Shown: positions 20,700 to 26,253 of the stretch, piece after piece
Layout of the letters: each line of letters starts with the position of its first letter
How positions within the stretch are numbered: the first letter of the stretch is position 1
Assembly (NCBI GenBank): GCA_028696185.1
Contig: JAQVHL010000017.1
Location: forward strand, 1-47,255
Reading direction: 5' to 3'
DNA length: 47,255 nucleotides
From: Halothiobacillaceae bacterium
GTDB lineage: Bacteria; Pseudomonadota; Gammaproteobacteria; Halothiobacillales; Halothiobacillaceae
The notes under the pieces: generated by a model
What the model was told of the DNA's origin: nothing
Databases searched by the model: none
Seen by the model: only the letters and a program-made list of their open reading frames with translations
Made by a program: the position numbers and the translations under genes

Positions 20700-22682
20700 A
20701 TGCATACACACATCCTCGGAGAAACCCTCATCCTGCTGGCCATCGCCGTGGTGGTTGTGGTGGCTTTTCGCCGACTGGCCCTGCCCGCCATCCTGGCCTA
20801 TCTGGGGGTGGGTGCCGTCGTCGGCCCCTTTGGCATGGGCTGGGTGTCCGACTCGGAGAACATCCGCTTCATTGCGGAATTTGGTGTGGTGTTCCTGCTT
20901 TTTACCCTTGGGCTTGAGTTTTCCCTACCCAAGCTGATGTCCATGCGACGCGCCGTGCTGGGCATGGGAAGCGCGCAGGTGATTGCCACCACGGTGATTG
21001 CCGGAGGAATCGCCTTGCTGGCGGGCTTCTCCCTGGAGGCGGCCTTCGTCATCGGGGGCGTGTTCGCCATGTCGTCCACCGCCATCGTCATCAAGCAGCT
21101 CGGCGAGCAGATGGAAGTCAACTCGCGTCATGGGCTCAATGCCATCGGCATTCTGCTGTTCCAGGACCTGGCCGTCATCCCCTTCCTGATCCTGATCCCC
21201 ATCCTCAGCAGCGGCGGCGATGAAAGCGAGGTCACCCGTAGTCTGCTCTGGGCGCTGGGCTCGGGCATCGTGGTCACGGCCTTCCTGCTGGCCGTGGGGC
21301 GCTGGGTGCTGCGTCCCTTGTTCCGCGAGATCGCCAATGCCCGCTCAGCGGAGCTGTTCACCCTTGCCGTGCTCCTGGTCGCGCTCAGTGCCGCCTGGCT
21401 CACCGAAGCCGCCGGCCTGTCCATGGCCCTGGGCGCCTTCCTCGCCGGCATCATGCTCAGCGAAACCGAGTTCCGCCACCAGATCGAAACCGACATCCGT
21501 CCCTTCCGGGACGTACTGCTCGGCCTGTTCTTCGTCACCATCGGCATGATGCTGAATCTGCGCGCCCTGCCGGAGATCCTGCCCTGGGTCGTGCTCATCC
21601 TCGCCCTGCTGATCGCACTCAAGGTGGCCACCATCTTCCTCGTGGGCCTGCTCAGTCGCGAAAATCCTGGCGTTTCGCTACGCACCGGCCTCGTGCTCGC
21701 TCAAAGTGGCGAGTTCGGTTTCGTGCTGCTGGCCCTGGTGGATCAGAGCGTTCTTTCCGACCAACACATGCAAATTATCCTCGCCGCCGTCATCCTCAGC
21801 ATGGTGCTCACCCCGTTCCTGGTACGCTACAACGGACGTATCGCCAAGCGCGCCAGTCCGAGCTACCGGCGCTCCATCGTCGAGCGCAAGGAGGAAATCA
21901 GTCAGGGCGCGCGTGAACTTGAGCGTCACGTCATCCTCTGCGGTTTTGGCCGCGTCGGGCAGAACCTGGCCAATTTCATCGAACAGGAAGGCGTGGACTA
22001 TGTCGCCCTCGAAGTCGATCCCGATATTGTCTACAAGGCGCGACAAGCCGGTCTGCCCGTACATTTTGGCAACTCCACGCACCAGGAAATCCTCCATGCT
22101 GCCGGCATCCTGAGTGCAAAGGCGCTGGTCATCACTCACCATGACATCACGGCCGCCATCAAAACCGTTTCCCTGGCGCGCAACATCGCCCCAGGCCTGC
22201 CCATCCTTGTGCGCACACCAACCGACCAGTTCCTGGAGGAGTTGATCGAGGCCGGCGCCACCGAAGTGGTTCCCGATGCTTTCGAGGCCAGCCTGATGCT
22301 TTCCTCCTACCTGCTGGGACGCTTGGGCGTCCCCCTGTCGAAGATCATCCGCATGAACCAGCAAATCCGGCGGGACAACTACAGCCTGCTGCGACACACT
22401 TTCCGAGGTCAGGAAGTGAGCGACCTCGACATCCCCCCCCGCAAGCAATGGCACCTGCAGAGCGTGCATCTGGTCCACGGCAGCCATGGCATCGGCCAGT
22501 CCCTGGGCGAGCTTCGAATCGAAGAAAGCGGCGTGATTGTCGATGCCATCCGCCGCAGCGGCATCAAGGGGCAGTCCCCCGACCCGGAAACCCGCCTGCA
22601 GGAAGACGACGTACTGATCCTTTATGGTACGGAAAGTGACCTCGCGCGCGTGGAAAAACGCCTGCTGAGCGGCAGGGAATAA
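20700..22682 (+). CDS. CPA2-family monovalent cation:proton antiporter with RCK (TrkA-N/TrkA-C) domains
   Basis: A 660-residue protein of the KefB/KefC/YbaL class. Residues 1 to about 390 form a polytopic membrane exchanger domain, with markers such as LAYLGVGAVVGPFG, FLLFTLGLEFSLPKL, and the GFV/QSGEFGFVLLAL region. An RCK_N Rossmann domain follows at about 409-525 (HVILCGFGRVGQNLANFIEQ), then an RCK_C domain at about 580-655. These regulatory domains bind nucleotides or small ligands and gate K+ or Na+ movement. It probably exports K+ in exchange for protons. I cannot tell Kef from YbaL type, so no symbol is given. It stands alone, 31 bases after aat. Confidence 0.88.
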   Translation: MHTHILGETLILLAIAVVVVVAFRRLALPAILAYLGVGAVVGPFGMGWVSDSENIRFIAEFGVVFLLFTLGLEFSLPKLMSMRRAVLGMGSAQVIATTVIAGGIALLAGFSLEAAFVIGGVFAMSSTAIVIKQLGEQMEVNSRHGLNAIGILLFQDLAVIPFLILIPILSSGGDESEVTRSLLWALGSGIVVTAFLLAVGRWVLRPLFREIANARSAELFTLAVLLVALSAAWLTEAAGLSMALGAFLAGIMLSETEFRHQIETDIRPFRDVLLGLFFVTIGMMLNLRALPEILPWVVLILALLIALKVATIFLVGLLSRENPGVSLRTGLVLAQSGEFGFVLLALVDQSVLSDQHMQIILAAVILSMVLTPFLVRYNGRIAKRASPSYRRSIVERKEEISQGARELERHVILCGFGRVGQNLANFIEQEGVDYVALEVDPDIVYKARQAGLPVHFGNSTHQEILHAAGILSAKALVITHHDITAAIKTVSLARNIAPGLPILVRTPTDQFLEELIEAGATEVVPDAFEASLMLSSYLLGRLGVPLSKIIRMNQQIRRDNYSLLRHTFRGQEVSDLDIPPRKQWHLQSVHLVHGSHGIGQSLGELRIEESGVIVDAIRRSGIKGQSPDPETRLQEDDVLILYGTESDLARVEKRLLSGRE

Positions 22683-22742
22683 CCCACCGATCAGCTGCAC
22701 TTATGGATGATAAGCAAGCACACTCGCACGGACAGGCTATAC

Positions 22743-22768
22743 TCAAGTTATCTTTGATTGGCAGACAA
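22743..22768 (+). promoter_or_regulatory. Possible FliA (sigma-28)-like promoter upstream of the 69-residue protein
   Basis: TCAAGTTA (22743-22750) and GCAGACAA (22761-22768) resemble the flagellar sigma-28 elements TAAAGTTT/TCAAG and GCCGATAA, with a spacer of 10 instead of the usual 11. The second element matches 6 of 8 positions. An overlapping TATACT (22738-22743) could instead be a sigma-70 -10 box, but without a good -35. The call is tentative. Confidence 0.3.
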
Positions 22769-22822
22769 CGTCGGCAGCCTCACCGATCCAGGCCGCCGGC
22801 GATCCCTCCGAGGGCATAGGCC

Positions 22823-23032
22823 ATGATCGATCCCGTCAGTAGCGCAAGCTTCAACCCACCGGTCGCCCTGCGTCGTCCGGACGAGCCTTCCTACGTTCAG
22901 GAAGGGCTGACGGCTCGCGCACGCATGCCCACCCCATACCGTATCGCCTCACCCGGTGAAATCGAGCAGGCGGTGCGTGATCGTGGAGCGCTTGAATCCC
23001 GCGTCGGCAGCCTGCTTGACGTACGGGCCTAG
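22823..23032 (+). CDS. Small protein of unknown function (69 aa), paired with SprA-type gene
   Basis: A 69-residue hydrophilic protein (MIDPVSSASFNPPVALRRPD...) without signal peptide or membrane segment. I do not recognise the family. It begins with ATG at 22823 and ends LLDVRA, sharing the last four residues (DVRA) with the next gene's product, which ends VVDVRA. The 11-base gap to that gene, which includes its GGAG ribosome site, suggests one operon. The Pro/Ser-rich N-terminus looks disordered; residues 43-66 could form a helix. A sigma-28-like site upstream hints at motility-linked expression, but this is weak. Confidence 0.65.
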   Translation: MIDPVSSASFNPPVALRRPDEPSYVQEGLTARARMPTPYRIASPGEIEQAVRDRGALESRVGSLLDVRA

Positions 23033-23043
23033 GAGCATCGGCC

Positions 23044-23610
23044 ATGGATATGAGCACCGCCAGCTGGTCGCAACAACCGCTCCCCCCCTGGAACCCGGCC
23101 ACCCAGGAAGCACTCAAACGCGGCGCCCAGGTCAACAGCAAGACCGAGCCTGGCGAGCCCCCCACCGCGCAGGAAAACGCCGCCGTACGCCCGCAATCGG
23201 CCGAGCCCGACCAGCAGCAGACCCGCGAGCAGGCAAATGAGTTGCGCGAGCTCAAGGTCCGTGACCAGGAAGTGCGCCAGCACGAAAACGCCCATCGCTC
23301 CGCCGGCGGGGGATTGGTTCGTGGGGGCAGCTACGAATACACCCGAGGCCCCGATGGGCGCATGTATGCGATTGCCGGGGAAGTCAGCATCGACAGCGGC
23401 AGTGTCCCCGGAGACCCGGAGGCCACCTTGCAAAAGGCTCAGACCGTGCTGCGTGCGGCCCTGGCCCCCGCAGAACCCTCGGGCCAGGATCGGCGTGTGG
23501 CGGCCCAGGCACAAGCCACGGCAGCTCAGGCTCGCCTGGAACTGATGCAAAAACGCGCCCGTGGTGAAGAAGGGCAAGCCCCTGGAGGCGTCGTCGATGT
23601 CCGTGCCTGA
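23044..23610 (+). CDS. SprA-family putative metalloprotease
   Basis: A 188-residue protein with the SprA-related domain. Residues 1-60 are Pro/Gln/Glu-rich and probably disordered. Around residue 78 is VRQHENAHRSAGG, where HENAH fits the HExxH zinc-protease motif and the trailing AGG is typical of this family. It is followed by SYEYTRGPDGRMYAIAGEVS, a conserved core strand region. The C-terminal third is an Ala/Gln-rich helix. There is no visible signal peptide, so the site of action is unclear. GGAG lies 8 bases before the ATG. Family knowledge supports a putative peptidase; activity and substrate are unknown. Confidence 0.78.
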   Translation: MDMSTASWSQQPLPPWNPATQEALKRGAQVNSKTEPGEPPTAQENAAVRPQSAEPDQQQTREQANELRELKVRDQEVRQHENAHRSAGGGLVRGGSYEYTRGPDGRMYAIAGEVSIDSGSVPGDPEATLQKAQTVLRAALAPAEPSGQDRRVAAQAQATAAQARLELMQKRARGEEGQAPGGVVDVRA

Positions 23611-23667
23611 AAAACAATTACTTGGCAGTGTCGGCAAACCGGGTTGGAAAAACCCTTGTAACTTGGC

Positions 23668-26253
23668 ATGCTAAGCCCACATATCAACCCGAATCGGTTC
23701 GAGATGACCCAGCCCAACAGCACGCTCACGGCAGCACAGATACTCGACACCCTGCGCAAGCGGGGCCGCGAGATCCTGCTGGGCCGCATGGATGCCATGT
23801 TCAGTCACGCGGACGATACGCTGTTCGGCATGGCCGAGCGCGCGTCCGAGGCTCGCCAGCAAAACCTCTATTTCGACACCATGCGCACCCTGCGTCTGGA
23901 ACGGCAATCGCTCACGGAACGCTTTCTTGCCCTGGTCGGAGAAACCGAAAGGCCGGCAGGGCCGACACCGGAGAGTAAAAACGACCCCGAGGACATGTTC
24001 TCGCTCTCGCTGCTGGATCACGATCAGGTCGAGGAAAATGTCGCCGTGACCAATATGGTCACCAAGATCAAAAACCTCTACGCCACCGAAATCGCGCATC
24101 TGGAAACCCGTCTGGAATGGCTGGCCGAGCGGCATAGCCTCGAACTTCCCGCCAGCCTGTACTCGCCCCAGCGCATTTGCGAAGCCTTTCGCGACGCCAT
24201 GGACGAGCTGGAGCACGAAATCCAGATCAAGCTGCTGATATTCAAGCTTTTCGAGCAGCATGTCGCCTCCCGGCTGGCGGATTTCTACCGTGAACTGAAC
24301 GAAACCCTGATCGAGTCCGGCGTCCTGCCCAAGATCCGCCTGCAGCGCGGTGGATCAGGCCGAGGCGGGGGTGGCGGGGGGAGTATGGGCGGCATGGGGG
24401 GAGGCATGGCCGCACCGGCATCGCCCGCCCTGGCGGGCGATGCCGAGATGGGAGGCGATTACGGCGGCGGGGCCGGAGGATACGGCGGGGCCGCGCCGGC
24501 CTATGCCGGATACCCCATAAGCCGCGCCTCCCTGCTGCAACAGCTGACCCAGCCAGGGCTCAACGAAGGCATTGCCCCACCCACTGCTGCCTGGAATGCC
24601 GATACCCTGCTCAGCCACCTGCTGGAAAGGCTCGATGGCGGTCAGGGCGGCAAGCTGACGCCAGCGAGCATGCAGGATAACGAAAAGCAGGTTCTGGAAC
24701 TGGTGAGCATGATGTTCGGCGCCCTGCTTACCGACCGCAATGTCACCGACGCCACCAAGCTGCTGATCGCACGCCTGCAGGTACCCGTGCTCAAATCCGC
24801 CCTGCTCGACCCAAGCTTTTTCCGCAATGCGATGCACCCGGCCCGCGCCTTCATCAACACCCTGGCGCTACGCGGCACTTCGGCGGTCCCGACCGAAGCC
24901 CCCAGCTTCCAGCGCATGCAGGCCCTCACCGAGCGCGTTGTCGAACAGTTTGATAGCAACCCCAACGTCTTCGCCAGCGCGCTTGAAGAACTCAAGAACA
25001 TCGAAAAAGACATCCCGGCGGCTCCGGATGAATTTCTCGAACAGGAACGTGCCCAGGCGCAACGCCGACGCACGGAGCTCATTGCCCGTGCCCGTGAGGA
25101 AGTCACCGCGCTGATTGTGCGCCACACGCGGGGCATACAGCTCCCCCCCTTCCTGCAGCAGTTCATCCAGCAGGGTTGGGGACCGCTCATGGTGGTGAAA
25201 TTCATCAACCACGGCCAGCACAGCGTCGCCTGGATTCAGGCCGAAGAGCTCCTGAGCGACCTGCTCAAGCGCACCCAGCCTTCCCTGCCGATCGATCAGG
25301 AAGAAGATCGCTCCCTGCTCGTTGCCCTGCGCGATGAGTTGGACAGTGTGAATTTCGACTCCTCGCGCGTCGAGCTGATGCTGGCCCCGATCACTGCCTG
25401 GTTCAACGAACGCCATGCCACGCTGACCAGCGAAGAAAATGCCTTGGCTCCGTTCGCCAGCCTTGAGGAAGTCGAAGCCGAAGCCGAAGCCGAAGCCGAA
25501 GCCGAAGCCGAAGCCGAAGCCGAAGCCGAAGCCGAAGCCGAAGCCGAAGCCGAAGCCGAAGCCGAAGCCGCAGCCGAAGCCGAAGCCGAAGCCGAAGCCG
25601 AAGCCGAAGCCGAAGCCGAAGCCGAAGCCGAAGCCGAAGCCGAAGCCGAAGCCGAAGCCGAAGCCGAAGCCGAAGTCGAAGCCGAGGTCGAAGCCGAAGC
25701 GCCTCCGCCTGCTCCCGAGGCAGAAGCAACCGTGCCCGTTACGAAAGCCGAGGAATCCGCCGCCTCATGGGCCGCTGCAACCGTGGCACGCCTTGCGGAA
25801 GACTGGAAGCGCGCCGAACCGGAACCCGAGTTTGAAGCCACCGGGGATTATGTCGTCGGCACCGTCATCGATATACCACCTAGCGTTGATAAGGAACCCA
25901 GCGAAAGCAGCGAAACAGCCGGAGAGGAAAATCCGACCCGTTGGAAGGTCATCGACTTCCTGGCCTCCACTTTCACCCCGAACACCTGGTTCCAGATTTT
26001 CACGGGCGAGGGACTGGCTGTTCGGCGCCTGAAGGCACACAGCTTCTCCGCCAGTATGGATGTGGTGATCTTTGCCGACCGCAACGGACAGAAATGCCTG
26101 TTCCGTCCCATCGACGCCTTTATCGACGATCTGCTGCAGGGACGTTCGCACCCCGTATTCGACGATCCGCGCTTCCAGGCCGACCTCAACCATCTGCGCG
26201 ATGTGCTCACCGCCGCCGCGTTTCAGGAAACCCGCAAGACCGGTCAATCATGA
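23668..26253 (+). CDS. DUF1631 family protein with a long Ala-Glu repeat
   Basis: An 861-residue cytoplasmic protein of unknown function. The DUF1631 hallmark is the N-terminal [20 protein letters not shown] near residue 52 with following helices; homologous blocks resume at about 285-590 and 740-861. Two low-complexity stretches interrupt it: a Gly/Met-rich linker at about 228-282, and an acidic (Ala-Glu)n tract at 602-677. The C-terminal part ([33 protein letters not shown]) resembles the end of other DUF1631 proteins. An ATG at 23704 ([12 protein letters not shown]) is an alternative start; neither has a clear ribosome site. Its stop overlaps the PilZ gene start (ATGA), suggesting a joint role. 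Confidence 0.85.
25471..25698 (+). repeat. Hexanucleotide tandem repeat (GCCGAA)n inside the DUF1631 gene
   Basis: Thirty-eight consecutive 6-base units encode (Ala-Glu)n, residues 602-677. By eye 33 are exact GCCGAA; the variants are three GTCGAA (Val), one GCCGCA and one GCCGAG, concentrated at the edges. The unit is a multiple of three, so copy-number change alters protein length without frameshift. The same repeat keeps several shadow frames open (Pro-Lys, Ser-Ala and Arg-Leu dipeptides), which are not genes. Confidence 0.97.

Follow-up and report, generated by a model that had tools for sequence, protein, structure and literature searches.

Several described flagellar systems bear on the C-terminal ending analysed here. 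In Salmonella, the parts of FliK important for export switching include residues 301-350 and the five at its C-terminus, and the substitution A405V suppresses an FlhA mutant (PMC10965912). Salmonella FliK has 405 residues (PMC6972891), so that A405V alters its last residue; V is also the second commonest end residue seen in the present analysis. A 2026 model places the last five residues of FliK in contact with the cleaved FlhB domain (PMC13344023), and both the need for these residues and the identity of their reader are still argued (PMC13344023, PMC10965912). In Caulobacter, removal of LDIRI from FliK-C stops its degradation by Lon and abolishes the effect of its overexpression on motility, a mild flagellin effect persisting (PMC8545394). 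A five-residue, transferable C-terminal Lon degron, rich in hydrophobic residues and with a terminal histidine, is present in LarA (PMC10665427). The FliK cases are direct precedents for a partner that reads a C-terminal pentapeptide of the pattern defined below.

The SprA-related protein CJM1_0395 of Campylobacter jejuni is found in wild-type supernatants and is absent from flgG supernatants (PMC5223770). Its deletion mutant grows and swims like the wild type, so that the C. jejuni flagellum works without SprA, and a version with a FLAG tag immediately before the stop codon is still released in a flagellum-dependent manner (same source). In our literature search, mostly without subscription papers, we found no paper on a C-terminal motif common to FliK, YjfB, SprA and the small family described below, and the portions of the literature covered make no mention of the tag in the PF12118 family.

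The window, i.e., the whole stretch of DNA analysed, comprises 47,255 nucleotides of a Halothiobacillaceae bacterium (contig JAQVHL010000017.1). The initial annotation had pointed to a 69-residue ORF and an SprA-type ORF, 11 bases apart and both ending in DVRA. Coordinates and translations bear this out: the two ORFs lie on the + strand, the TAG stop of the first is followed by 11 bases and then by the second, and DVRA forms the C-terminal end of both products. The features of the unit are as follows.

22743..22768, + strand: sigma-28-like site TCAAGTTA-N10-GCAGACAA, 54 bases 5' of the first ATG
22810..22814, + strand: possible Shine-Dalgarno sequence GAGGG of the 69-aa gene, from the sequence, 8 bases before the ATG
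22823..23032, + strand: 69-aa ORF, positional counterpart of the small pre-SprA gene of many genomes, with a diverged body and no Pfam or NCBIfam match
23015..23029, + strand: tag LDVRA, C-terminal end of the 69-aa ORF (sequence and small-family profile alignment)
23032-23035, + strand: Shine-Dalgarno-like GGAG of the SprA gene, from the sequence, 8 bases before the ATG
23044..23610, + strand: SprA-related (PF12118) putative zinc metalloprotease of 188 aa (Pfam match), with N- and C-terminal tails that are flexible in the model
23281..23295, + strand: HENAH (HExxH) motif of SprA, residues 80-84 (alignment of 34 SprA proteins)
23593..23607, + strand: tag VDVRA, C-terminal end of SprA (sequence and SprA tail counts)

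An antisense ORF of 202 aa (window 23029-23637, - strand) spans SprA and exceeds it in length; a length-greedy gene call therefore takes the wrong strand there. Downstream, a DUF1631 protein contains a long internal (EA)n repeat (window about 25430-25740).

The SprA-type identity of the second protein was correctly recognized: a Pfam scan assigns it to PF12118 with 114.7 bits (cut-off 27.3; E 7.2e-33), the match covering residues 42-173 of 188 and leaving the tag outside. Residues H80, E81, H84 and D117 are invariant in an alignment of 34 SprA proteins, and the linker that precedes the tag differs in length among them. In the structure model of SprA, residues 61-170 have a mean pLDDT of at least 95 and the last eight residues about 55. 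No PDB relative was detected by sequence up to E 1, and Foldseek with the model returned no match at E <= 0.001. In a second structure comparison the top Z was 7.1, obtained for flagellar proximal rod chain 7cg0_i (rmsd 3.0 over 60 residues) and equally for unrelated helical proteins; with RseP chains, Z was 4.9 and 4.5 (rmsd 4.3 and 3.8 over 101 and 94 residues).

The endings of SprA proteins were compared in two sets, some loci of which come from the same organism. Of the 276 genomes sampled from the class, 58 contain PF12118; they give 59 SprA loci, of which 58 have a complete C-end (the one cut off, G301, was left out). The named-contig set holds 80 SprA loci, 78 of them complete and two cut off. 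In two genomes (G078 and G177) the SprA match crosses a stop; the C-ends, read in the right frame, both fit the pattern. The initial annotation had considered a common tetrapeptide. The ending is indeed shared, but its unit is a C-terminal pentapeptide, approximately Phi-[DN]-x-x-[AV]-COOH, on a flexible tail, and exact DVRA occurs in this genome only among the 134 distinct SprA proteins. We defined a loose pattern, [ILVMF][DNS]xx[AVI] at the C-end, and a strict one, [ILVMF][DN]..[AV]. The class set contains 47 of 58 SprA proteins that fit the loose pattern (35 strict), and the named-contig set 44 of 78 (32 strict). Among the 134 distinct tails, 89 fit the loose and 65 the strict form at the C-end, leaving 45 and 69 outside, respectively. 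At internal offsets 5-24, the loose pattern occurs in a mean of 1.2 of the 134 tails, compared to 89 at the C-end. Overall, therefore, the orthologues do not carry unrelated C-termini, although one third (45/134) deviate. Together with the occurrence of the ending in unrelated flagellum-linked families, the SprA counts give comparative support to the shared recognition tag that the initial annotation proposed.

The fitting SprA proteins include members from Phycisphaerae (L152), Acidobacteria (L175), Anaerolineae (L172), Kordiimonadaceae (L163) and Thermodesulfatator (L157); another Anaerolineae SprA (L153) does not fit. Many Halomonas/Vreelandella SprA proteins end in -EQAA, -ARAA or similar, and two from Desulfobacteraceae in -FKLAV. 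The Halomonas/Vreelandella proteins of L160, L161, L165, L166, L167, L190 and L192 have AA-type tails without the hydrophobic-D/N positions, which suggests that the tag was lost or altered in this lineage.

The chance background was estimated with length-greedy ORFs, a procedure that loses some real genes (SprA in the window, FliE on contig C91). In the 80 SprA contigs, 36 of 1417 such ORFs fit the loose pattern at the C-end, and 25 of these 36 are a small gene just 5' of SprA; without this gene, the background is 11 of 1392 neighbouring ORFs (0.8%). Within the window, 1 of 45 greedy ORFs fits, namely the 69-mer, SprA being absent from the 45 because the antisense ORF, which is longer, displaced it. 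Contig C91 (77 kb) has two fitting ORFs (of 75), both of them Flg_hook proteins; FliE, likewise displaced from this set, has the end EVMSMSI, which would fit the loose form. Of 17 proteins around fliK in E. coli K-12, two fit, FliK and FliE. The tag set of the window's genome comprises FliK (IDLFA), a Flg_hook paralogue (LNLKA), YjfB (VDIKA), SprA (VDVRA) and the 69-mer (LDVRA).

The 25 fitting small genes are of one kind, 79-128 aa long as called and located directly before SprA. With a profile from which the last eight residues had been omitted, 58 small genes were retrieved, in 58 of 139 SprA loci. The tag is carried by 53 of these 58, a figure that is only partly independent, since the profile was trained largely on 45 small genes picked by their ending; of the five that lack the tag, three have a final G in place of A/V/I. 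The small gene lies 3' rather than 5' of SprA in six loci (L018, L049, L056, L146, L149 and L211). Across the class, strong matches to the small family occur in 67 genomes, with E 3e-9 as the limit; this excludes a hit at 8.6e-9 in a 1141-aa frame of G087, a genome that has FliK. The numerous weaker matches lie in frames of about 400-550 aa and presumably represent FlgE.

The small family is similar to the C-terminal part of the hook protein FlgE. Of five members compared with Pfam, three touch Flg_bbr_C (E 8.5e-5, 1.3e-3 and 1.7e-2), none over the cut-off; the fourth touches a type III inner-rod family (E 3.3e-3), and the fifth has no match. Two of three members compared with NCBIfam touch FlgE models (best E 2.3e-5), and the structure model of the small partner consists of two long helices. 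The clearest connection comes from one genome (G117), in which a 405-aa FlgE-type hook protein is encoded just before SprA (L023:129-1343), at the site of the small gene in other genomes; it has four flagellar axial domains over their cut-offs (FlgE_D2 at E 1.1e-28) and ends in a tag, GSLFDATA. The small gene may accordingly code for a shortened axial protein.

The 69-mer itself has no Pfam or NCBIfam match, the YjfB domain included, and in the Pfam scan Flg_hook (PF02120) matched neither the 69-mer nor SprA. Relatives were found in none of 95 other genomes, its own being the only one among 96, and tblastn against viral contigs found none. Plasmid hits were weak and unrelated (best E 0.2), and membership of the 69-mer in a known family was rejected. 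The small-family profile aligns only the last 12-15 residues of the 69-mer (55-69 or 58-69), i.e., the tail, with no FlgE-end-like helical body found, and in the class search it had no match in the window's genome (G000), nor in G003 and G006, two genomes from the same taxonomic family as that of the window. Because the match is confined to these last residues, we call the 69-mer a positional counterpart that keeps position and tag only, and not a member of the small family by fold.

The sigma-28-like site that the initial annotation described 54 bases before the first gene is present at 22743-22768. With a matrix set by hand to the FliA consensus, it scores 13.1, which places it at the 97.9th percentile among 1227 control upstream regions of the SprA contigs and at the 99.2nd percentile among 130 control regions of the class loci. 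In the window's genome, TMAAG-N14/15-GCCGAT precedes yjfB and flagellin-like genes (the latter identified by eye). Compared with these flagellin-type promoters, the window site has a spacing of N13 from TCAAG instead of 14, and its -10 part, GCAGAC, has two mismatches to GCCGAT. Of 41 upstream regions of small genes, 14 exceed the 95th percentile of the contig controls and two the 99th (p 2.8e-4). The support is uneven, as 4 of 28 contig loci exceed the 95th percentile of their own controls, and 10 of 13 class loci that of theirs (p 2.4e-5 for the class loci). A score of 10.2 on the same matrix is passed by 9 of 17 yjfB upstream regions and by 12 of 36 upstream regions of SprA genes without a counted small gene, one of the 36 being the SprA of the window. 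No sigma-70-like match occurs in 22500-23800, where only 0.2 would be expected by chance. A sigma-28 promoter 5' of the 69-aa gene is plausible; the percentiles are suggestive of it, the class orthologues support it and the contig orthologues lend it little support.

FliK matches were found in 153 genomes and in the window's own genome, and 72 ends were read. All 62 ends of long-tailed FliK fit the pattern, as do 8 of 10 ends of short-tailed FliK-like paralogues. The FliK of the window's genome ends in SGIDLFA and that of E. coli in GVDIFA. Position -2 is Y or F in all 62 FliK proteins, E, K, T, R or N in the paralogue and R in the window pair, which makes the paralogue look more like the window pair than FliK does. 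The second Flg_hook protein of the window's genome (G000:C91:50061-51659, locus L033) has a short tail ending in LLNLKA, and its relatives end in LLDEKA, VVDERA and LVDTRV, nearer to the DVRA of the window than FliK is. An FlhB-like partner directly 3' of FliK was sought in the same genome and rejected, the ORF there being unlike one as judged by eye.

YjfB (PF14070) was found in 29 of the 276 genomes; from 30 matches, 17 ends were read by eye and all 17 are tagged; the end is VDIKA in the window's genome, for example, and LLNVRA in G288. Two yjfB genes adjoin SprA divergently (G207:C11:244318-244488 and G295:C7:302707-302865; loci L005 and L031), and represent another tagged small motility gene in the neighbourhood. 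Such an association is not the rule: within FliK genomes, YjfB occurs in 16 of 58 with SprA versus 13 of 95 without it, a weak difference (p 0.054). For FliE (30 loci, L275-L304), 17 of 25 ends read fit the loose pattern but follow another consensus, roughly IM[NRS]M[QP][VI]; this conserved end is reminiscent of the tag yet distinct. FlgG, FlgF, FlgC, FlgE and FlgK of the window's genome do not have the tag ending, FlgE ending in TIINIR.

The flagellar connection suggested in the initial annotation is upheld by phyletic distribution. In the 276-genome class sample, FliK is present in all 58 SprA genomes, compared to 95 of 218 genomes without SprA (p 6e-18). It is also present in 29 of 29 YjfB genomes and in 66 of 67 small-family genomes, the exception (G106) having the small family without a FliK match. 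Among the FliK genomes, the small family occurs in 41 of 58 with SprA versus 25 of 95 without it (p 1e-7). Lon matches occur in all 276 genomes (269 over the cut-off), including that of the window, with or without FliK. With Lon present in every genome sampled, its distribution is no help in telling docking from degradation.

What this study observed directly is the motif and its clustering at the very C-end, together with the synteny and the finding that SprA and YjfB occur with FliK. The explanation we prefer, with a probability of roughly one half, is that the DVRA ends represent a FliK-type handle that is read at the export switch and possibly serves as a Lon degron too. The two genes would then form a small unit coupled to the flagellum, and their endings would be one case of a C-terminal short linear motif borne by several unrelated flagellum-linked families: the ruler and switch protein FliK, the second Flg_hook protein, the motility protein YjfB, the SprA metalloprotease and the small FlgE-end-like protein. 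We infer that these carriers are clients of one receptor, which would most likely be the export-switch site (FlhB cytoplasmic domain/FlhA) where the C-terminal pentapeptide of FliK is recognized. Synthesis of SprA and of the small partner would come late, in many genomes as part of the sigma-28 class. The tag would let the gate hold or check both proteins, and their exit through the flagellar channel would depend on N-terminal signals. Once outside the cell, SprA would have a flagellar or extracellular protein as its substrate, and copies that are not exported would be degraded wherever Lon also recognizes the pentapeptide. The broader proposal, that one C-terminal motif marks at least five unrelated flagellum-linked families as clients of a single export-switch receptor, is tentative and we hold it at somewhat less than even odds. 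In its boldest form, the handle would bring SprA to the switch or to the growing tip, where it would trim or remove a flagellar component. Considering the Y/F of FliK versus the R of the window pair at position -2, the readers may differ.

The alternative that fares best, although we consider it unlikely, is that the tag is primarily a degron for Lon (or a similar AAA+ protease), which limits the cytoplasmic lifetime of unexported flagellar proteins; the switch role of FliK would then be a separate use of the same residues. The LDIRI that Caulobacter FliK-C needs for degradation by Lon (PMC8545394) closely resembles the LDVRA of the window, LarA provides a transferable five-residue C-terminal degron (PMC10665427), and Lon is encoded in the window's genome. 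Its presence in all genomes sampled, with or without FliK, neither supports nor excludes this alternative. Salmonella, however, needs the FliK tail for switching (PMC10965912), and the combination of D/N/S at position -4 with an A/V/I end shows more specificity than a general hydrophobic degron would; that of LarA, with its hydrophobic residues and terminal histidine, is unlike the tag motif.

An export function is the least likely of the three initially offered for the tag, the other two being docking and degradation. C. jejuni SprA reaches the supernatant only with a flagellum (PMC5223770) and the tag families co-occur with FliK, both of which would agree with an export signal for the flagellar secretion system. 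This reading is nevertheless improbable, because the C-terminal FLAG fusion, which would mask a tag at the end of CJM1_0395 if the native protein has one, is still released, and flagellar export signals are described as N-terminal in the portions consulted of two papers (PMC10965912, PMC6972891). Descent from, or mimicry of, the end of an axial protein such as FlgE, in place of a separate shared reader, is less probable still. It would account for the likeness of the small partner to the FlgE end, for the full FlgE-type protein with a tag in G117, and for the TIINIR end of FlgE in this genome and the similar FliE end, but SprA, FliK and YjfB belong to different Pfam families, the tag follows a tail of variable length in SprA and FliK, and five axial proteins of the same genome do not have the ending. 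Coincidence of the two DVRA ends, for which the restriction of the exact tetrapeptide to this genome among 134 SprA proteins and the absence of a detectable relative of the 69-mer could be cited, is very improbable given counts that contradict chance: a 0.8% background, an ending conserved at both gene positions in other genomes, and a 69-mer end that is matched by the small-family profile.

If the ending is a FliK-type handle, the tagged small proteins, some of about 75 residues, would be simple natural ligands for finding the reader of the FliK tail. The shared ending also gives functional leads for YjfB and SprA, and predicts that further flagellar clients could be recognized from their last five residues.

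Compared with known systems, the window pair shares a five-residue C-terminal element with the Lon degrons of Caulobacter FliK and LarA, which for SprA and the small proteins is a resemblance in sequence only. The small partners align weakly to the C-terminal helix of FlgE/FlgG (Flg_bbr_C, PF06429), but they comprise about 75-110 residues, are devoid of the middle domains and have an added tag. YjfB (PF14070) is likewise a small protein with the same kind of ending, although the 69-mer has no YjfB match. With the PF12118 family, represented by Campylobacter CJM1_0395, the SprA of the window has in common the domain, over the cut-off, the HExxH motif and the link to the flagellum; its tag lies beyond the Pfam-matched stretch (42-173). 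The FliK switch tail differs from the window pair in having Y/F at position -2, where SprA and the 69-mer, both without a Flg_hook match, have R; it shares with them the pentapeptide pattern at a free C-end, in the same genomes.
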